Origin: Burkholderiales bacterium
Lineage (GTDB): Bacteria > Pseudomonadota > Gammaproteobacteria > Burkholderiales > JABEVD01
Assembly: GCA_019753155.1 (NCBI GenBank)
Contig: JAIELG010000009.1
Span: 1-47,743 of the forward strand
DNA: 47,743 nucleotides
Reading direction: 5' to 3'
Part shown: positions 30,881-47,743 of the stretch, piece by piece
Position numbering within the stretch: position 1 is the first letter of the stretch
Layout of the letters: every line of letters starts with the position of its first letter
The notes under the pieces: generated by a model
What the model saw: only the letters and a program-made list of their open reading frames with translations
What the model was told of the DNA's origin: nothing
Databases searched by the model: none
Translations under genes and position numbers: made by a program

Positions 30881-30957
<77 letters not shown>

Positions 30958-30996: not shown

Positions 30997-31284
30997 GTTT
31001 CTGCCCAAATCTTAATATATCTTAAAATGTCTGTATTTGTCGTAACGGTTACGACAAATTTACGACAAATATCGACCCGGTTAAGGCTACAAAATTTTAT
31101 AATTCGGTGCCCGACACCGGACGCTCGTGAATGGCAGGCCCCGACCCGTTGCAGTCCTTGGCGAACGGCAGCTATCCGGCAAGCAATTTGGCAGGGCTAA
31201 TTTCTCCTAATAACCCAAAGCTGACCAACCGTATTCTCGAAACAAGACGTTTAGATGGGAGAACCGTGGATTCGTCGGCACGAC
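30997..31284. other. Island junction region without a gene
   Basis: AT-rich sequence after the tRNA terminator followed by about 150 bases of higher GC. It holds the inverted and direct repeats at 31035-31070. I see no coding frame with family character, no integrase fragment and no second copy of the tRNA 3' end. Confidence 0.5.
31035..31070. repeat. Inverted plus direct repeat next to the tRNA
   Basis: ATTTGTCGTAAC (31035-31046), one G, then GTTACGACAAAT (31048-31059) is a perfect 12-bp inverted repeat. The half-site TTTACGACAAAT recurs directly at 31059-31070. Three copies of TACGACAAAT in two orientations, 78 bases beyond the tRNA, look like recombinase arm sites or an operator left behind at an integration site. 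Confidence 0.6.
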
Positions 31285-32091: not shown

Positions 32092-32427
32092 CTTGGAACC
32101 CTGAAATAGCATAGCGTCTACATCTCGCTTTAAGTGCAGGTTTGCATCAATCTCGAACGGCTGATATTGGCCGATTGTCACCTGTCGCGACTGACTGCTT
32201 TCTCGCTGGATATTCTACACCTCGACCGACAGCAATTGGCACACAGTTGCCATGCAATTTCAGAATTACGCTTCCAGGCAGCGGACATTCGGAAGGGCGA
32301 CCCCGTCCAACACTATACCCGTTCACGAAGCGGGTTTCCAAGTAGTTGCCGATTGCCGCCCGTCGATCGCGCGTTGCCGTATTTTCCGTATATCGCTGCT
32401 TTTCCTGACACTTCTGCATCGATTTTA
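32092..32427. other. Intergenic region between divergent genes
   Basis: About 340 bases between the membrane protein gene (minus) and the HTH gene (plus). It should hold both promoters. I see no coding sequence of quality and no clear promoter pair; the right end merges into the conserved repeat at 32428. Confidence 0.4.
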
Positions 32428-32457
32428 AAATTTCCGCCCTTGCTGAATGGAGATATG
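32428..32457 (+). repeat. 30-bp direct repeat, copy A
   Basis: These 30 bases match 44508-44537 at 27 positions (core TGCTGAATGGAG). Here it lies directly upstream of the HTH/Rep-like operon; the other copy lies directly upstream of the oriT and relaxase gene. Only the second copy has the matching left arm that makes a hairpin. Confidence 0.75.
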
Positions 32458-32478: not shown

Positions 32479-32808
32479 ATGCAGCCAAACCCAATCAGCC
32501 CACTCCTCGCGGAACTGCTGAAGCAATATCCGCCCGTGCTCGACCTCGAGCAGGGCGCTCAAATCCTGAAATATCCAACAGTCAACAGCGTCAGACTGGC
32601 ATTTTGTCGAGGGCGTCTCCCTGTTCGACTCCGGTCTATTGGCGGACGGTATGTTTTCTTTCTGTCCGATATCGTGGAATTCCTTGAAACCGGACAGCCA
32701 CAGGAACAAATCCTGAAGCCGCACCCGACCCCAGCGCCAACCGCAGGCAAGCGGCCCGGCAGACCAACCAAAGCGCAGCAAATCGCCAGGCGTCAGGCCG
32801 AGGCCTGA
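32479..32808 (+). CDS. Small HTH DNA-binding protein of plasmid type
   Basis: A 109-residue protein. Residues 18-60 (PVLDLEQGAQILKYPTVNSVRLAFCRGRLPVR...GGRYVFFLSDIVEFLE) resemble the MerR/excisionase-like winged helix fold used by plasmid and phage regulators. The C-terminus is Pro/Lys/Arg-rich (GKRPGRPTKAQQIARRQ), suiting non-specific DNA contact. AAGGAG lies seven bases before ATG 32479. It is followed closely by the Rep-like gene, so a control or accessory role in plasmid replication is plausible. The exact family is not recognised. Confidence 0.75.
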   Translation: MQPNPISPLLAELLKQYPPVLDLEQGAQILKYPTVNSVRLAFCRGRLPVRLRSIGGRYVFFLSDIVEFLETGQPQEQILKPHPTPAPTAGKRPGRPTKAQQIARRQAEA

Positions 32809-32840
32809 TCATGGGCTGCGGCTGCAATGGGAGCAGGCAG

Positions 32841-33404
32841 ATGGAGCTTTTCAAGGCGGAAACGACGTGGTTTCATGTCTTTCGGGACATGATCGAATCG
32901 GGTGACGTGGCGAAAATGGGGTCGTATGCGGCAACTGTTTATCTTGTCATCAAGGCACATACCAACTTCAGCACTGGACGCTCTTTTCCCGAGATCGAAA
33001 CGATCGCCGAGAAGTCCGGCGTATCGATCGCGCAGGTCAAGCGTGAACTGAAGGTTCTCGAAGGAATGGGGTACATCTCAAAGACCAGGAAAGGGCGCAG
33101 CAACGTCTATACGTTGCGCGAAAAAGTTTCGATCACGGGGGGTGATGGCAGGCCGGAGGCCGTGGCGACCTGGGATTATCTGCCGTCAAGCGTGCAGCAT
33201 GCTGTAGCGGATTTGAAAAACGTGCTCATTACCGGCGAGTTGGCTGGAGCGAAGATCGTTCACATCGAGCGGCTACAAGTCAACGTCCAGAACAATTACG
33301 AGGGTGGGAATATCCAGTTCAATGAAGCCGATCTTGCCAAGCTTCCAAAGGACATGCAAGAGACGTTGGAGCGTATGAGGTCAAGGCGAAATAGGGAGGT
33401 CTAA
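32841..33404 (+). CDS. Plasmid Rep-like winged-helix protein
   Basis: A 187-residue protein. Residues about 15-100 form a winged helix: AATVYLVIKAHTNFSTGRSFPEIETIAEKSGVSIAQVKRELKVLEGMGYISKTRKGRSNVYTL, a pattern shared by small plasmid replication proteins and by GntR-like regulators. The C-terminal part is unassigned. ATG 32841 has GGGAG seven bases upstream; ATG 32811 is an alternative that touches the preceding stop. Iteron-like repeats follow 20 bases after its stop, the usual place for a plasmid origin, which supports a replication role. No polymerase or helicase motif is present. Confidence 0.65.
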   Translation: MELFKAETTWFHVFRDMIESGDVAKMGSYAATVYLVIKAHTNFSTGRSFPEIETIAEKSGVSIAQVKRELKVLEGMGYISKTRKGRSNVYTLREKVSITGGDGRPEAVATWDYLPSSVQHAVADLKNVLITGELAGAKIVHIERLQVNVQNNYEGGNIQFNEADLAKLPKDMQETLERMRSRRNREV

Positions 33405-33688: not shown

Positions 33689-35182
33689 ATGTCTGGATAT
33701 GGACTCTCGAAATCGCGCATCGTCGCCTGGAAGCAGTGCCCGAAGCGGTTCTGGCTGCAGGTCCACCACCCCGATTTTCTTGAAGTTTCGAATGAGGCAG
33801 AACGGGGTTTCCAGGTCGGCTTTGAAGTCGGCGAAGTGGCGATGAAACTCCATCCCGGAGGCATCCTGATCGACGACGAAGACCTCTCCAGGGCACTCGA
33901 TTCGACCAGGAAAGCGCTGGAGTCCCATCCGGACCGACCGGTCTTCGAGGCCACCTTCCAACACGACGGCGTTCTGGTGCGTGCGGACCTGATGCTGCCG
34001 ACTCGAAAAGGCTATCGCATGATCGAGGTAAAATCCGCCGCCAGCGTCAAGCCCTATCATGTTGACGACTGCGCGATCCAGGCTTGGGCGATCGGAATGA
34101 ATGGAATCGTTCTTCGTTCCGTCGAACTCGCCCATGTCGACACCTCCTTCGTTTATCAGGGAAAAGGCGACTACCATGGTCTATTCCAATACAGGGAACT
34201 CGACGAGGAAATTTCGCCCCTGATCGAACAGGTGCCGAAATGGGTTGCCGAGGCAAGGCTCACCTTGTCGGGAGGCGAGCCCTGCATCGAACCTGGAGAA
34301 CAATGCATGGCCCCCTTCGAGTGCCCGTTCAAGACCTACTGCGAAAGGAACATGGTCCTGCTTGAAGAGCCGAAATACACGCTGGACATCTTTTCCAGGA
34401 TGCGCGAATCGACAAAACAGGAACTTCGCGGCATGGGATACGAGGATGCGCTTGACGTGCCGCAGGAATTGCTGAACGAGACACATAAACGGATTCAGCG
34501 CATCAGCCGCACCGAAATCGCCGAACTCGATCCTGATGCGGGCAGGATGCTCGATGCGCTGCTCTATCCGCGCTACTATCTGGATTTCGAGACGATCAAC
34601 TTCGCAGTTCCCCGCTGGGCGCAGACCAGCCCCTATCGAACCCAGGTGACGTTCCAGTGGTCCTGTCATGTCGAGGAAGAACCCGGGAAGATTCGCCACG
34701 AGATGTTCCTGGACGTGTCCGGGGAAGATCCGAGAAGAGCCAGCGCGGAAAGGATGATCGGGACACTCGGAGCGGAGGGCCCCGTTTTCGTCTACAATCA
34801 GGTTTTCGAGAAGGGGAGGATAACGGAGCTGGCCGAGCTTTTCCCGGATCTCGCCGATGAACTCCATGCCCTCAACGGCCGGATCGTCGATCTGCTTCCC
34901 ATTGCGAGGGCGCACTACTGTCATCCGGACATGAAGGGTTCCTGGTCGATCAAGGCGGTGCTGCCGACCGTCGCTCCGGATCTCGACTACACTGCACTGA
35001 CAGTCGGAAACGGCGGGGATGCGCAGGAAGCCTTCCGGGAGATCCTGCATCCTGAAACACAAGACGAGCGCAGAAATCTGCTGACTGAAGGATTGCGCGA
35101 ATACTGCAAGCTGGATACCCTTGCCATGGTAAGGCTGGCTTGGTTCTTCCAGGAAATGAGCGACATCGGGAAGAAAAGCTAA
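33689..35182 (+). CDS. DUF2779 protein: Fe-S PD-(D/E)XK nuclease fused to DEDD-type exonuclease fold
   Basis: A 497-residue protein. The N-terminal third is a Cas4/AddB-like nuclease: LSKSRIVAWKQCPKRFWLQ (Cys17), catalytic D100 in RADLMLP and E113-V-K115 in MIEVKSA, Q131, then cysteines 206, 212 and 218 that with Cys17 could hold a 4Fe-4S cluster. The C-terminal half starts YYLDFETI (D299, E301), an RNase-H-like exonuclease motif, with VYNQVFEKGRI and YCKLDTLAMV further on. This two-domain layout is DUF2779. It presumably cuts or trims DNA; the partner is unknown. Its TAA overlaps the WYL gene start (TAATG), so the two proteins are made together. Confidence 0.85.
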   Translation: MSGYGLSKSRIVAWKQCPKRFWLQVHHPDFLEVSNEAERGFQVGFEVGEVAMKLHPGGILIDDEDLSRALDSTRKALESHPDRPVFEATFQHDGVLVRADLMLPTRKGYRMIEVKSAASVKPYHVDDCAIQAWAIGMNGIVLRSVELAHVDTSFVYQGKGDYHGLFQYRELDEEISPLIEQVPKWVAEARLTLSGGEPCIEPGEQCMAPFECPFKTYCERNMVLLEEPKYTLDIFSRMRESTKQELRGMGYEDALDVPQELLNETHKRIQRISRTEIAELDPDAGRMLDALLYPRYYLDFETINFAVPRWAQTSPYRTQVTFQWSCHVEEEPGKIRHEMFLDVSGEDPRRASAERMIGTLGAEGPVFVYNQVFEKGRITELAELFPDLADELHALNGRIVDLLPIARAHYCHPDMKGSWSIKAVLPTVAPDLDYTALTVGNGGDAQEAFREILHPETQDERRNLLTEGLREYCKLDTLAMVRLAWFFQEMSDIGKKS

Positions 35183-36210
35183 TGCCGCAAGTCGACAAGA
35201 AATCCACCCTGCTTCGCCAGTGGGAAATGCTCAAGCTGGTGCCTTCCGGCGGCAGCCCCTGGGTAAAGGCGAGCGAAGTCGCCTCGAAGCTGAAAGATGC
35301 GGGCTACGAAGTCTCGGTACGAACCGTGCAGCGCGACCTGAAGGAGCTGAGCACAGTCTTCCCGATCGAACTCAACGACAAGAATCTCCGCGATTACGGC
35401 TGGCGCTGGATGAGGGGGACGCATCTCAACGTACCCGGATTGAGCGCATCTGAAGCGCTCGCCATGCGGCTGGTCGAAACGCACCTGAAGCAATTGCTGC
35501 CGTCCTCCATGCTGGAAGCGCTCCGGGGCGTATTCGGCCAGGCGAAATCCAGGCTGGAAAATACCGCTGGCCAGAACGGCAGTCAGCCTGCAGGTTGGCT
35601 GAACAAGGTCAAAGTGGTGCAGCCGACGCAGCCCTTGATCCCGCCGAAGGTTGACAAGACCGCACAGGACGCCATCTACCTCGGCCTGCTGGAGAACCGC
35701 CAGCTTTCGGCGAGCTATCACTCCATAGGCGGTGAAGAATCCAGGGAATATGTTCTGCATCCACTCGGGCTCGTCATGCGGGGTTCTGTTTCCTATCTCA
35801 TCGCAAGCGCATGGGATTACGATGACGTGAGGATGTACGCACTGCACCGCTTCGAAAAGGCGGAGGTGTCGATCGATGCGGTCAGGGTTCCGGAAGGATT
35901 CGACCTGGAAAAAAGCATCGCTTCCGGCTTTGCGGATTTTTCGAACCAGGAGGAGCCCATCCGCCTCGAAATCCTTTGCGAGGACTCACAGGCAGCCTAC
36001 CTTGCCGAGACGCCATTATCCCCCGACCAGAAAATCGAACCGGATGAGGAAGGATGGGTCAGGCTCTCTGCCACCGTCAACGACACATGGCAGCTGCGCT
36101 GGTGGCTGCTTTCCCAGGGGGCGAGCATTGAAGTGCTTGCCCCTGAAAGCCTTCGTGCAGGGATCGCGAAAAGCCTCGAAGAAGCGCTTTCAAACTACAG
36201 GGAAGGTTGA
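35182..36210 (+). CDS. WYL-domain transcriptional regulator
   Basis: A 342-residue regulator: winged helix (about 8-77, PWVKASEVASKLKDAGYEVSVRTVQRDLKELS), WYL domain (about 160-232, LSASYHSIGGEESREYVLHPLGLVMRGSVSYLIASAWDYDDVRMYALHR) and a WCX C-terminal domain (about 258-335). The WYL tripeptide itself reads SYL. WYL proteins sense ligands such as single-stranded DNA or nucleotides and control DNA-damage (PafBC, DriD) or defence genes (BrxR, CapW). Its start shares a base with the nuclease stop. I infer that it binds the five palindromic promoter sites of this island, the first of which drives its own operon. Confidence 0.9.
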   Translation: MPQVDKKSTLLRQWEMLKLVPSGGSPWVKASEVASKLKDAGYEVSVRTVQRDLKELSTVFPIELNDKNLRDYGWRWMRGTHLNVPGLSASEALAMRLVETHLKQLLPSSMLEALRGVFGQAKSRLENTAGQNGSQPAGWLNKVKVVQPTQPLIPPKVDKTAQDAIYLGLLENRQLSASYHSIGGEESREYVLHPLGLVMRGSVSYLIASAWDYDDVRMYALHRFEKAEVSIDAVRVPEGFDLEKSIASGFADFSNQEEPIRLEILCEDSQAAYLAETPLSPDQKIEPDEEGWVRLSATVNDTWQLRWWLLSQGASIEVLAPESLRAGIAKSLEEALSNYREG

Positions 36211-36233: not shown

Positions 36234-36850
36234 TCATTCGGGGGAGATGATCAGATTCATGACCAGCCTGACCATCAGATCCTTGTTCGCCGGGTTGCTT
36301 TCAGCGATCAGGAGGGCGAGCGCCGTCAGCGCATTTTCGTTCAGCCTTGTCACCACGTTTTCGCATACCTCACGATGATGGAAAGAACGTCCTGCCCCTG
36401 TTCCGTGACCAGCGCCCGGCTTTCGAGCGTTCGTGAAAGGAGCTCGATGGCTGCCTGCATTTCTGAAACGCCCCGCTCGGCGATGCGGGACTGATTGATC
36501 GTGAACCCCTTGACCAGGTGGTCGCGTAAAATGCGGGTGGCCCATTGGCGAAACTGGACACCGCATTTCGAATGGACGCGGTAGCCTACCGAAATGATAA
36601 CATCGAGGTTGAAATATTCGACCTGGTAAGTTTTGCCGTCGGCGGCAGTTGTTGCTAATTTTGCAACAACTGCATCACGAGCCAACTCGCCGTCTTTGAA
36701 TATATTGCCGATATGGCGCGAAATCACTGATTTGTCACGCTGGAACAGGGCAGACATCTGCGCCAATGCAAGCCACACGGTTTCCCCTTACAGACGGACA
36801 TCAACGCCGGGTTTCCCGGTCTCAATCTCGTAAATCAGCACTTCGCTCAT
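36234..36850 (-). pseudogene. RhuM family protein, inactivated
   Basis: Read on the minus strand from ATG at 36850, the sequence gives SEVLIYEIETGKPGVDVRL, then an in-frame TAA where the family has Tyr, then the conserved RhuM core ETVWLALAQMSALFQRDKSVISRHIGNIFKDGEL...NLDVIISVGYRVHS...FRQWATRILRDHLVKG. It stops after RYAKTW at 36350. The C-terminal LNENALTALALLIAESNP segment of RhuM is present in another frame down to 36234, but roughly 150 residues between are gone. With a nonsense codon and a deletion this is clearly dead. RhuM genes are common passengers of islands. Confidence 0.85.
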
Positions 36851-44107: not shown

Positions 44108-44380
44108 CTATTCTTTGTGCGCACCCAGGCCAAATAAGGCGCGGTCATCGGCGCGCGTGAGCGTCTGACTCAGCATCTCAAGCAGTCTGGTTTCGGGCCA
44201 TTCGCCGCGCTCGACTTTGCCGAGGATGACCGCCCCGACCAGTATCTTGCGGCGCGTGTCCTCGTTGCGCTTGCGTTTGGTCTCGATAGCCCGCTTGCGG
44301 GCCTCGATCTGTTGCTTCCTTGCTTTCTCCTGCTTGAGACTGGCTTCGAGGGCGGCTATGCGCTCTTCTATATTCCTCAT
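44108..44380 (-). CDS. TraD-family mobilization accessory protein
   Basis: A 90-residue protein: a charged N-terminal coiled coil (IEERIAALEASLKQEKARKQQIEARKRAIETKRKR) followed by DTRRKILVGAVILGKVERGEWPE and ending LTRADDRALFGLG. This is the conjugal transfer TraD/MobC-like family (small, not the coupling ATPase) encoded beside MobA/MobL relaxases, and thought to help relaxosome assembly at oriT. It is divergent from the relaxase gene, with the oriT region between them. The gene is complete. Confidence 0.85.
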   Translation of the reverse strand: MRNIEERIAALEASLKQEKARKQQIEARKRAIETKRKRNEDTRRKILVGAVILGKVERGEWPETRLLEMLSQTLTRADDRALFGLGAHKE

Positions 44381-44421: not shown

Positions 44422-44538
44422 GGTATGGCCGTGCTGTTGTAGCCATACCTATTCAGCGCGAGCGGAAATCCTGAGAAGCGAAATGCCGAGAGGGGAAGCC
44501 CATTTCGAAATTTCCACCCCTGCTGAATGGAGGTATGG
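44422..44538. repeat. Compound inverted repeats beside oriT, including 30-bp repeat copy B
   Basis: GCCATACC (44442-44449) can pair in two ways. Upstream it matches GGTATGGC (44422-44429) as a perfect 8-bp stem. Downstream CCATACCT-ATTCAGC (44443-44457) pairs with GCTGAAT-GG-AGGTATGG (44522-44538), continued after an internal loop by GGAAAT (44464-44469) with ATTTCC (44510-44515). The two hairpins exclude each other. The right arm is the 30-bp repeat (44508-44537) also found at 32428-32457. Confidence 0.7.
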
Positions 44539-44545
44539 AAGACCC

Positions 44546-44583
44546 GAAGGGCGCACTTAGGAGTCACTACGTGACTCGTGCGC
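44546..44583 (-). other. MOBQ-type origin of transfer (oriT) with nic site
   Basis: Read on the minus strand, TAAGTGCGCCCTT (44559-44547) matches the nic region of MOBQ/IncQ-like plasmids, where the relaxase cuts TAAGTG^CGCCCT; here the cut would lie between 44554 and 44553. On the 5' side of nic the inverted repeat GAGTCAC-TAC-GTGACTC (44561-44577) provides the relaxase recognition hairpin. Outer arms GCGCAC (44551-44556) and GTGCGC (44578-44583) extend it. The relaxase gene starts 34 bases away. Confidence 0.82.
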
Positions 44584-44616: not shown

Positions 44617-46119
44617 ATGGCCATCTACCACCTCAGCGTGAAAGCGGTATCCCGTTCAGTCGGTCGCAGTGCGACCGCTGCCGCCGCTTATCGTGCCGGC
44701 TGCGAGATGGCCGACGAGCGTACCGGCGTGATTCATGACTATCGCCGCAAGGGCGGTGTCGAATCCGCCGAGATCGTCTTGCCCGATGGGGCACCCGAAT
44801 GGGCGACCGACCGGGCAAAATTATGGAACGCTGCCGAGCTTGCCGAGAAGCGCAAGGATGCCTGCGTGGCAAGGGAATATGAGGTGGCCCTGCCCGCCGA
44901 GCTTTCCCCCTCAGAACGACGGCGGTTGGCTCTCGATTTCGCCAGGGACATGGCGAACCGGGAAGGGTGCTCGGTGGATGTCGCCATTCACGCCCCTGGC
45001 AGGGGGGGTGACAACCGCAACCATCACGCCCACCTCCTGCGCACGACCCGCAAGGTCGAAGCCGAAGGCATGGGCGCGAAGCTGGATGCCGAAAAAGCCG
45101 GGCGCAACCGAACCGCCGACCTTGAGGCAGTCCGTGTTCGCTGGGCTGAAATGGCCAATATCGCCCTGGAGCGGGCAGGTCATGCTGCCCGCGTCGATCA
45201 CCGCAGCCTTGAGGCGCAACGCGAGGAAGAGCGGCTGGGCGACTATCTGCGGCGGAAGATTGAGCACGCCGAGCGTCTTGAGGCGCTTTCCCGCGAGCCG
45301 ACCCGGCACCTTGGGCCCACGGCGACCGCTTTCGAGCGGCGTACCTGGGAGCCAAGCCGCTTGCGGCTGGACTTCGAGCGGGAAGCCATGGAACGGCTGG
45401 AGCGGGCCAGGGAGGCGGGCGACCTGGAGCGCCAGGGGAAGGCGCTCGATCGCGCCATTCTCGACTTGTCGGGCGACCTCAACGCGGCCAGGGCCGAGCG
45501 CGACCGCCAGCAACGGGACGCCGAGCAGAAGCGGCAGCGCATTGAGATGGAGCGGGTGAAACCGATCGAGAAAGACAGGCGCCAGGCACAGGCCGAGCGT
45601 GAGCGCGAATTCGAATCGAGGCCGATAAGCCTTCCGGCGGATCGATTCACCATCGAAGTCGCCGCGTCTCTCGGCCTCGAACGGGCAACCGAACCAGGAA
45701 GGGTGTCCATGCCGCAGGGTCGGTACTTCGACGCAATGCAAGGTGGCTCTGCGCTCCCTTTCAATGCTAAGGGTATCTTGGTCGGGGTCGATCTGCGCCG
45801 ATGGGACGGCGGGCTGAGCAGCGCAGACCAGCTTGCCTTGATCGGCATGGAAGGACTACTGAGCAATGGCCATTTAACGCGCCTAGCCACCGATATTGTG
45901 GTGGTGCGTGATGCTCAATTTCTGGAGGCGCGGGAAAGGGGCGGACTATCCGTGCAGACCAGCGGCGAGCGTGTCCGGGAGAGGGAATCGGCAATCGAGG
46001 CAGATCGGCAGCGCGCCACTGCCGCCACGACGATATCCGTCACCCGGGAAGAATGGAAACCCGAAGTGTCGAAAGAGCAGAAACCCGAGATCAACGACGG
46101 GAAGGACTTCGGTCTATAG
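44617..46119 (+). CDS. mobA: MobA/MobL family relaxase
   Basis: A 500-residue MOBQ relaxase. AIYHLSVKAVSRSVGRSATAAAAYRAG opens the MobA/MobL domain with the likely catalytic Tyr25. The metal-binding histidines are H125 and HHAH (136-139) in VAIHAPGRGGDNRNHHAHLLRTTR. The middle (about 200-340) is a long charged coiled coil; the C-terminal part is unassigned and has no primase. It nicks oriT and leads the strand into a recipient, using another element's type IV secretion system. ATG 44617 follows AAAGG; an in-frame start at 44578 would lie within the oriT hairpin region. It is divergent from the TraD-like gene. Confidence 0.92.
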   Translation: MAIYHLSVKAVSRSVGRSATAAAAYRAGCEMADERTGVIHDYRRKGGVESAEIVLPDGAPEWATDRAKLWNAAELAEKRKDACVAREYEVALPAELSPSERRRLALDFARDMANREGCSVDVAIHAPGRGGDNRNHHAHLLRTTRKVEAEGMGAKLDAEKAGRNRTADLEAVRVRWAEMANIALERAGHAARVDHRSLEAQREEERLGDYLRRKIEHAERLEALSREPTRHLGPTATAFERRTWEPSRLRLDFEREAMERLERAREAGDLERQGKALDRAILDLSGDLNAARAERDRQQRDAEQKRQRIEMERVKPIEKDRRQAQAEREREFESRPISLPADRFTIEVAASLGLERATEPGRVSMPQGRYFDAMQGGSALPFNAKGILVGVDLRRWDGGLSSADQLALIGMEGLLSNGHLTRLATDIVVVRDAQFLEARERGGLSVQTSGERVRERESAIEADRQRATAATTISVTREEWKPEVSKEQKPEINDGKDFGL

Positions 46120-46142: not shown

Positions 46143-46436
46143 TCAGGCTGCGTGTAGTTCCTGCCGTATTGTTTCCCTCACGACATCTGCCAGCGTTTGT
46201 CCCACTGCAACCTGTTTCAAGGCTTCATTGATGAGAGTTTGATAATTTCCCCCAGTCATCTCCGCTCGGGCCTTGAAAATAGCAAGCACGTCATTGTCTA
46301 CGCGCATGGTAATGCGGGTTTTCCCTCCTGACTCAGCCTGGAGCTTCGCCAGGGCCGGGATGGCCGATACTGGCTTCGCATCAGAAAAGTCCATGTCTTT
46401 GTATTGCTCGTGCATTGCATCAGAACTGTTCTTCAT
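46143..46436 (-). CDS. brnA: BrnA family antitoxin
   Basis: A 97-residue BrnA antitoxin. The N-terminal part (MDFSDAKPVSAIPALAKLQ) is the toxin-binding segment; TRITMRVDNDVLAIFKARAEMTGGNYQTLINEALKQ is a ribbon-helix-helix DNA-binding domain. It neutralises BrnT and represses the operon. AAAGGA lies six bases before ATG 46436, inside the toxin gene, which it overlaps by 17 bases. The C-terminal extension (TLADVVRETIRQELHAA) is common in the family. Confidence 0.93.
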   Translation of the reverse strand: MKNSSDAMHEQYKDMDFSDAKPVSAIPALAKLQAESGGKTRITMRVDNDVLAIFKARAEMTGGNYQTLINEALKQVAVGQTLADVVRETIRQELHAA

Positions 46437-46695
46437 ATCGCTTCCTTTGCCGTTGGTTTGCCTTCCATGCCGAAATCAGCCGGATACTCTCTCCCCTATG
46501 AGTCCATACCACGATCAAAATACGACCTTTTGCCCCCATTCTCAGAGATACGAATCTCTGCTCCTCTTGCGCGTCCCGATCTTCTTTCGTGAGGGCGTAA
46601 GGATCGAGCAATACAGGCTTGGCCTCATCGAATGTCACCCCGTCATGGTTGAGGGGGTTGGCCTCGGCTTTCCTCGGGTCGAACTCGATTTTCAT
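46420..46695 (-). CDS. brnT: BrnT family ribonuclease toxin
   Basis: A 91-residue BrnT toxin of the RelE-like fold: MKIEFDPRKAEANPLNHDGVTFDEAKPVLLDPYAL, then RFVSLRMGAKGRILIVVWTHRGESIRLISAWKANQRQRKRYEE, with the conserved RLISAxxA-type end carrying catalytic Arg residues. It cleaves RNA to stop growth and is counteracted by BrnA. ATG 46695 is close behind a strong promoter and has no ribosome-binding site, so translation is probably leaderless. The frame extends upstream to 46773 but beyond the promoter. Confidence 0.92.
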   Translation of the reverse strand: MKIEFDPRKAEANPLNHDGVTFDEAKPVLLDPYALTKEDRDAQEEQRFVSLRMGAKGRILIVVWTHRGESIRLISAWKANQRQRKRYEEQF

Positions 46696-46702
46696 ATTAG
46701 GA

Positions 46703-46731
46703 ATTGTACATACCAATGTGCATACAGTCAA
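46703..46731 (-). promoter_or_regulatory. brnTA promoter
   Basis: On the minus strand -35 TTGACT (46731-46726) and -10 TACAAT (46708-46703) are separated by 17 bases. Transcription would start at about 46696, one base before the brnT ATG. The spacer holds an imperfect inverted repeat (TGTATGCAC and GTATGTACA) that could be the BrnTA operator. Confidence 0.75.
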
Positions 46732-46754
46732 CCCAGCTGTGGAGAACAAATAAA

Positions 46755-46787
46755 CTGTCCGGTGTAGTAGCACGTAATCTGTCCGGT
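46755..46787. repeat. Left terminal region of the IS element
   Basis: CTGTCCGGT occurs at 46755-46763 and again at 46779-46787, followed by a TTTATCC stretch, just before the transposase ribosome-binding site. Such repeats mark the left end of IS elements of this group. The exact tip is not definable here because the other end is outside the window; it lies within about 25 bases of the brnTA -35. Confidence 0.5.
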
Positions 46788-46815: not shown

Positions 46816-47743
46816 ATGAAACGGACGGAATGGCTACAGGAGACACGGAAGATGAGATTTTTGGAAGCATTATCAGGTTGGCGGGAAGGACGACTGACCC
46901 AGGAAGAGGCGGCACGATTGCTCGGGGTGTGCGAGCGGTCGTTTCGGCGGTATTTGAACCGGCACGAGGAAGCCGGGCTGGAGGGGCTGATCGACAAGCG
47001 CCTGAGCCAGGTATCGCATCGGCGGGCGCCGGTAGATGAAGTGCTGGCGACAACGGCGCTGTACCAGAAGCATTACGCGGGCTGGAATGTCAAACACTTC
47101 CATAGCTGGTATCAGCGGGAGCATAAAGGCAGCCGGAGCTACAGCTGGGTGAAGAGTGTGCTGCAGTCACAAGGCGTCATTGCCAAAGCGCCGGGACGCG
47201 GCAAACACAGAAAGCGCCGCGAGCGCTCGCCGCTACCCGGCATGATGCTGCATCAGGACGGCAGCACGCATGAATGGGTGCCGGGTCAACAATGGGATTT
47301 GATCGTGACGATGGACGACGCCACCAACGCGCATTACTCGATGTTCTTCGTCGATGAAGAAGGCACACAAAGCAGTCTGCAGGGGGTGCGCGATGTGATC
47401 GAGCAGCATGGGCTGTTCAGCTCATTCTACTCCGATCGCGGCAGCCATTACTGGACCACGCCGGAAGCAGGCGGCAAGGTGGACAAGGAACATCCCACCC
47501 AGTTCGGGCGGGCCATGAAGCAACTCGGGATCACCATGATCGCAGCTTACTCGCCGGAGGCCAGGGGGCGCTCCGAGCGCATGTTCAGTACCCATCAGGA
47601 GCGGTTGCCCAGGGAACTGGCGCTGGCTGGGATCACCGATATGGCCGCTGCCAACCGCTACCTCGCCGAGCATTATCGCCAGAACTTCAATGCTGAATTC
47701 ATGCAGCCTGCCATGGAAGAAGGCGGCGCCTTCGTGCCATGGA
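46816..47743 (+). mobile_element. ISNCY (IS1202-like) transposase, cut by the window edge
   Basis: An open frame of 309 codons that continues past the window. AAAGGAGG precedes ATG 46816. The N-terminus has a helix-turn-helix (GRLTQEEAARLLGVCERSFRRYLNRHEEAGLEGLID), followed by an rve/DDE integrase core with QQWDLIVTMDDATNAHYSMFFVDEEGTQSSL, FYSDRGSHYW and YSPEARGRSERMFSTHQERLP supplying the three catalytic acids. This is the ISNCY/IS1202-type transposase layout. No frameshift is visible in the part present. It sits just upstream of brnTA on the opposite strand. Confidence 0.88.

Follow-up and report, generated by a model that had tools for sequence, protein, structure and literature searches.

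What does the short hairpin and conserved block at positions 44546-44583 do for the DNA that carries it, and what would set it to work? The sequence lies in a 47,743-nucleotide stretch of DNA from a Burkholderiales bacterium (the window, by which we mean that whole stretch), and an earlier note had read it as the nicking site of an island that may still be mobile. We believe, with a probability of about 0.6, that it is the origin of transfer (oriT) of an integrative and mobilizable element (IME) of the MOBQ type, and that the element belongs to a regulon driven by a helper.

The layout of the site is clear. On the minus strand, 44583-44547 reads GCGCAC-GAGTCAC-GTA-GTGACTC-C-TAAGTGCGCCCTT: a hairpin with a 7-bp stem (GAGTCAC-GTA-GTGACTC, 44561..44577, minus strand) followed by the nic block TAAGTGCGCCCTT (44547..44559, minus strand). 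The nic block was located by a pattern scan and the hairpin by a fold test, and both were followed in relatives. The 12-base core TAAGTGCGCCCT matches the window exactly at a single place, minus strand 44548-44559; it is still unique when one mismatch is allowed, where 0.12 matches are expected by chance. As single-stranded DNA the oriT region folds at -17 kcal/mol, compared with a mean of -7.4 for shuffled sequences (z -5.1; 0 of 200 shuffles equalled it). The hairpin also has an outer arm, absent from the earlier note, in which GCGCAC (44578-44583) pairs with GTGCGC (44551-44556). The core agrees with the MOBQ oriT consensus NWACCNNTAAGTGCGCCCTYNN as it stands in the accessible part of PMC3832669, and two of the four specified flank bases deviate by eye. 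In RSF1010, the nick falls at TAAGTGCG/CCCT according to the portion of PMC4814116 available. By analogy with that cut, the nick is expected here between 44552 (G) and 44551 (C) of the minus strand, two bases away from the 44553/44554 that had been proposed earlier.

Comparison with related loci points the same way. Relatives of the mobilization module were found in 195 plasmid records by blastn and in 4684 by tblastn, none covering 80% of the query, and the relaxase was matched in 9 of 200 genomes of the same order, its own genome included. The nic block was located in 16 loci: one is the window, nine are plasmid records, five come from three genomes of the same order and one is on a contig of the same genus. 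Of these, 13 have exactly TAAGTGCGCCCTT and three have a variant (L023, L024 and L044). A perfect stem of 6-8 bp lies 0-2 nt ahead of the block in 16/16, a count that took in solely loci where the block had been located, compared with 0.7% of shuffled flanks. The stems have six different sequences, and because six loci have the same stem, GCAAAC, the 16 loci are not independent. The hairpin sequence of the island is its own, shared by one same-genus contig. Among the other MobQ relatives scanned, the block was not seen in L042, L047, L025, L026, L031 and L034; the record of L043 ends inside it; and L048 is diverged, with AAGTGCGCCCTT alone and a clear stem missing. Loci L027-L029, L035 and L049 were left out of the scan. 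The uniqueness of the core, the fold score and the stems at all 16 related loci argue against a chance match as the source of the site. They support the claim that 44546-44583 is, as predicted from sequence, a MOBQ oriT within the island, where TAAGTGCGCCCT follows an inverted repeat and adjoins a MOBQ relaxase gene.

The MOBQ relaxase gene (44617..46119, plus strand) encodes a protein of 500 aa. It scores 198 bits against PF03389 MobA_MobL and 246 bits against NF041496, the NCBI MobQ equivalog (cut-off 200), and is the sole PF03389 match in its own genome. The protein has Y25, E87, E89, H125, H137 and H139 in addition to the MobA/MobL domain, an N-terminal tyrosine, glutamate pair and histidine triad that, when the motifs are read, match the catalytic residues of MOBQ relaxases given in the accessible part of PMC6856555. 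Among solved structures, NES (4ht4, E 5e-22) scores above R1162 MobA (2ns6, E 8e-13). Therefore the label ‘IncQ’, which the earlier note had attached to the site together with MOBQ, fits the nic layout but not the lineage of the relaxase. Two further stretches resemble the end of this protein: an ORF past the insertion sequence (L009:2022-2678, C5 at about 48.0-48.7 kb) is like the relaxase C-terminal region (window 45500-46119) and has a similar tail at its end, and C1:179726-179842 matches part of the tail as well.

On the other side of oriT, and divergent from the relaxase gene, lies an accessory gene (44108..44380, minus strand) for a protein of 90 aa that protein comparison identifies as a mobilization protein of the MobS-like kind. 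Of the 11 accessory proteins compared with it, 8 score above all shuffles, the best being a MobS-like protein with 63 of 87 residues identical; it has no Pfam match. The gene had been called TraD-type. That name has to be given up: Agrobacterium TraD scored 47, compared with 50 for the best of 200 shuffles, and Agrobacterium TraC did not rise above shuffles. The position of the oriT between a MobA/MobL relaxase gene and an accessory gene stands.

The same arrangement is familiar from small plasmids. RSF1010/R1162, pSHINM1 and a Nitrotoga 5.4-kb plasmid likewise have a hairpin followed by TAAGTGCGCCCT, and in RSF1010/R1162 and the small MobQ plasmids the relaxase gene is on the opposite strand and the accessory gene is divergent. 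In an IncQ1 record the strand that carries the nic block is oriented towards mobC, with the mobB/repB side behind it. The island has the same layout, and this homology agrees with the earlier proposal of a leftward leading strand, in which the relaxase gene would be the last to enter. In contrast to these plasmids, the oriT of the island is integrated, is accompanied by a tyrosine integrase and has its own hairpin sequence. Taken alone, the oriT is one more case of a well-known kind.

The island around it can be delimited. The 3' end of a tRNA-Met gene forms attL (30909..30957, plus strand) and is repeated outside the window at C5:50651; the repeats are 19,742 bp apart and agree at all but one of 49 bases. 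Just beyond the window, C5:49494-50549 encodes a tyrosine integrase (PF00589, E 4e-24). Near the left end lies a small HTH gene (32479..32808, plus strand) that is weakly excisionase-like (HTH_17, 24.1 bits with a cut-off of 27; phrog_66, E 0.006), followed by a replication-initiation-like gene (32811..33404, plus strand; HTH_36, 41 bits; phrog_270, E 5e-10; phrog_28562, E 3e-30). Between the repeats there are also a gene for a WYL/WCX protein (35140-36210, profile match); an ORF of the RhuM type (36350-36778; PADLOC candidates PDC-S05/S23) that matches only the initial part of the Pfam family and looks truncated; a BrnT/BrnA toxin-antitoxin pair (46143..46773, minus strand); a DUF2779 protein, an exonuclease-like protein and a double-AAA protein; and the mobilization module. 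At 46816..47743 (plus strand) starts a gene that runs past the window (L009:817-2025), matches HTH families alone and is labelled by eye as an insertion-sequence transposase.

The host genome has no match to PF03135 (VirB4), PF04335 (VirB8) or PF02534 (VirD4/TraG), the three secretion-system families covered. As integrase, att repeats, relaxase and oriT are all present and these families are not, the 19.7-kb island in tRNA-Met is almost certainly an IME with a MOBQ oriT, and its need of a helper is supported as far as these three families go. The earlier claim that the parts for mobilization are intact agrees with these features and with the accessory gene, as judged from sequence. Among relatives a clean empty site was not seen: the tRNA-Met 3' end is there and the sequence beyond it is different. 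In the relative G003 (C11, L120:2028-10187), the tRNA-Met 3' end occurs a second time at a distance of about 8.1 kb, which suggests that another island occupies the same site. Repeats of TTACGACAAATTTACGACAAA occur near both ends of our island (window 31045-31070 and C5:50562-50582) and also near tRNA-Met in G002:C170; they are possible arm sites of the integrase.

If the oriT is of a known kind, what lies ahead of it is less familiar. When the oriT region was compared with the rest of the genome, short matches turned up unexpectedly near other integrases, and the core common to these matches is a 21-bp motif, AAATTTCCGCCCCTGCTGAAT. In the island, one copy with one mismatch (44508..44528, plus strand) lies ahead of oriT and the relaxase gene, and a second, also with one mismatch (32428..32448, plus strand), lies ahead of the excisionase-like/replication-like pair. 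A degenerate copy with five mismatches (44451..44471, minus strand) faces the accessory gene and is not secure alone. Three further matches with six mismatches are probably due to chance; shuffled islands average 0.6 matches at up to six mismatches.

The motif is narrowly distributed. When its 20-mer was searched at up to two mismatches, the host genome had six copies and none of the reversed pattern. The 20-mer search of 300 genomes gave 13 copies in three genomes of the genus, with two matches for the reversed control, and one two-mismatch copy in each of nine genomes outside the genus. Within the genus, three of nine genomes carry the motif, with one control match. The exact 19-mer was found in four contigs of the genome_contigs collection, namely the same-genus contigs G004:C65 and G002:C96 and two others. 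The viral_contigs collection gave six matches, and no transfer gene was recognised in the 200-400 unannotated bases after each. We considered whether the motif is a constant component of MOBQ oriT modules and rejected this: at up to five mismatches it is missing from all 21 relative loci, a difference between the island and its MobQ relatives. We found no literature on the motif or on islands carrying it in a search that left most subscription journals outside.

The genes that follow the motif are mutually unrelated in sequence: a MOBQ relaxase, an HTH/replication pair, integrases, a serine recombinase, a NikA/MOBP pair and virB8. In the host genome, two tandem copies on C47 and one copy on C20, beside tRNA-Arg, are followed by a small gene and a tyrosine integrase; the copy on C25 faces no intact gene. 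On G004:C65, one copy lies about 340 bp ahead of a serine recombinase gene and a second points towards a MOBQ oriT where the contig ends. On G002:C96, the motif precedes a NikA-like gene and a TraI-type MOBP relaxase (NF041893, 357 bits, cut-off 250); other copies lie ahead of two small genes of unknown function, and another sits towards the 3' end of an ORF, followed by a gene that matches TraL very weakly. On G002:C181 it precedes virB8/trbF (PF04335, 134 bits). Of 14 aligned sites, one (C25) faces no intact gene, two face the small unknown genes and one faces the oriT at the contig end; these sites speak against a common regulon, as do the copy inside the ORF and the distance of about 340 bp to the serine recombinase. 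The alignment has 12 of 21 core positions invariant, partly by construction as the sites were picked by similarity, and downstream a less strictly kept GGTAT, which might serve as a -10 element.

Could the motif simply be a stretch of promoter, spread by descent or recombination within one genus and without a common activator, so that the island is an ordinary MOBQ IME? At some copies the similarity does exceed the core, reaching 82% over 50 bp between L118 and window 32405-32454 and 84% over 356 bp between C47 and C25, as shared descent also would give, and the restriction of the motif to three of the nine genus genomes agrees with this explanation. Against it, the genes after the motif come from unrelated families and from different types of element, and the flanks of many copies differ, yet the invariant positions of the core are kept in the 14 sites, chosen by similarity as they were. 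We therefore regard an ordinary IME as unlikely, though it is the alternative that survives best.

We slightly favour, by analogy with known helpers, the explanation that the motif marks a helper-driven regulon with a putative activator. It lies ahead of recombination and mobilization genes of islands and also ahead of transfer genes, and for the latter the helper is represented by two short contigs, G002:C96 and G002:C181 (5.7 and 3.3 kb), which need not be one element. Genome G002 has an estimated contamination of 6%, and one of the two contigs is named with a coverage of 1.46; PF03135 (VirB4) was not found in G002. Two adjacent genes directly ahead of the motif and virB8 on G002:C181 (L118:340-1497) are candidate activators. 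Apart from a very weak HTH hit, neither matches a family, and neither has a plasmid match or a relative among viral contigs. The second has no PDB match, finds only itself (G002) among the nine genus genomes, and by eye gives the impression of being sigma-like.

A second feature connects the helper contig with islands. The stretch 5' of the NikA-side motif on G002:C96 recurs twice in C47 and once each in C25 and G004:C65, and in these islands the copies adjoin copies of the motif. All five have GCGCCGA, GGGTGTCGGGCG and CTACCTTGTACCnTATTT in common, and in 5/5 a 6-bp hairpin ends 14 nt ahead of the last common block, whereas 4.6% of shuffles pass a looser criterion. The hairpins use three stem sequences, TTTGGC, TTTCGG and TGGCGG, with their complements. 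By analogy we read this oriT-like region as the oriT of the helper, copied by islands in which no relaxase was seen; for the islands on C47 and C25 the relaxase search covered only PF03389, which has one match in the genome. A search of the window and of L009 for the full block came back empty. Plasmids lend this reading little support: 181 records matched the region only at a limit of E 10, the best at 1e-3 over 18% of the query. Of these records, 137 are typed mobilizable; two that we inspected are typed non-mobilizable, have no relaxase annotation nearby and have ATCTTG after the block. Near the C47 sites lie genes for a C5 methylase, HATPase, AlbA and AAA_21 proteins, and near that of C25 a gene for an SNF2-type helicase. 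The short contig G004:C65 (L123 34-350) carries a MOBQ oriT and a helper-type oriT side by side, with the motif at each and a serine recombinase.

A different source for the activator would be the host or the island itself. The motif might be bound by a regulator such as the WYL protein of 35140-36210, and mobilization would then answer a signal of the cell and not a helper. The island does encode this WYL/WCX protein, and three motif-bearing elements share the genome in which the secretion-system families searched have no match. Among the ORFs read on the other, partly annotated motif contigs there is no WYL gene, and a conjugative element is suggested by the motif copies that G002 has ahead of virB8 and of the MOBP relaxase operon; we judge such a regulator improbable. 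Last, it is very improbable that the oriT is a decayed relic or a fortuitous match in an island that is now immobile, since, judged by their sequences, the block, the hairpin, the relaxase frame with its catalytic residues, the accessory gene, the integrase and the att repeats are all intact, although an insertion sequence lies inside the island and its transfer is predicted from sequence alone.

Based on these comparisons, we propose a model for the helper-driven regulon. An activator encoded by a helper conjugative element would bind the 21-bp motif and switch on, at one time, the relaxase gene and the excisionase-like/replication-like pair, possibly along with the accessory gene. The island would thus excise and mobilize once a helper is present. 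The relaxase would bind the hairpin and cut TAAGTGCG/CCCT on the minus strand, and the cut strand would be piloted leftward; on the excised circle, by homology, the accessory gene and the cargo would go in first and the relaxase gene last. The chances seem to us evenly balanced that one candidate activator, from a helper with MOBP relaxase and VirB8, drives two kinds of satellite: an IME that encodes a MOBQ relaxase and has an oriT of its own, and relaxase-less islands with copies of the helper oriT.

Activators of the AcaCD/SetCD kind are encoded by the helper and are homologous to FlhC/FlhD. The closest parallel in layout comes from these systems. In the accessible part of PMC4207636, AcaCD of IncC plasmids has sites ahead of xis, rep and transfer genes of SGI1, and in SGI1 and MGIVmi1, as in our island, one motif stands before excisionase-, replication- and mobilization-type genes. 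The motif of the island differs by eye from the sites in that part of the paper; by this comparison the island has no AcaCD-type DNA site, and we therefore class it as working like AcaCD but not as a member. It also differs from SGI1 and MGIVmi1 in having a MOBQ relaxase with its own oriT. The mobilizable islands that depend on SXT/R391 have no relaxase, a copy of the helper's oriT and recombination genes under helper control through SetCD, according to the part of PMC4344509 available. The islands on C47 and C25 are comparable, with a copy of the helper oriT and no relaxase seen, whereas the helper-type relaxase here is MOBP (NF041893); the likeness to SetCD covers layout and not the motif. 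In the accessible part of a 2017 review (PMC5704250), relaxase-encoding IMEs of the canonical sort were, as of that year, undescribed in Proteobacteria.

Once the motif common to these elements and the copies of the helper-type oriT are added, the oriT becomes part of a candidate network of helper and satellites outside the IncC and SXT systems, legible from sequence. The 21-bp motif is a means of listing the satellites of one helper. It also opens the question of how satellites may sense their helpers to reporter testing.
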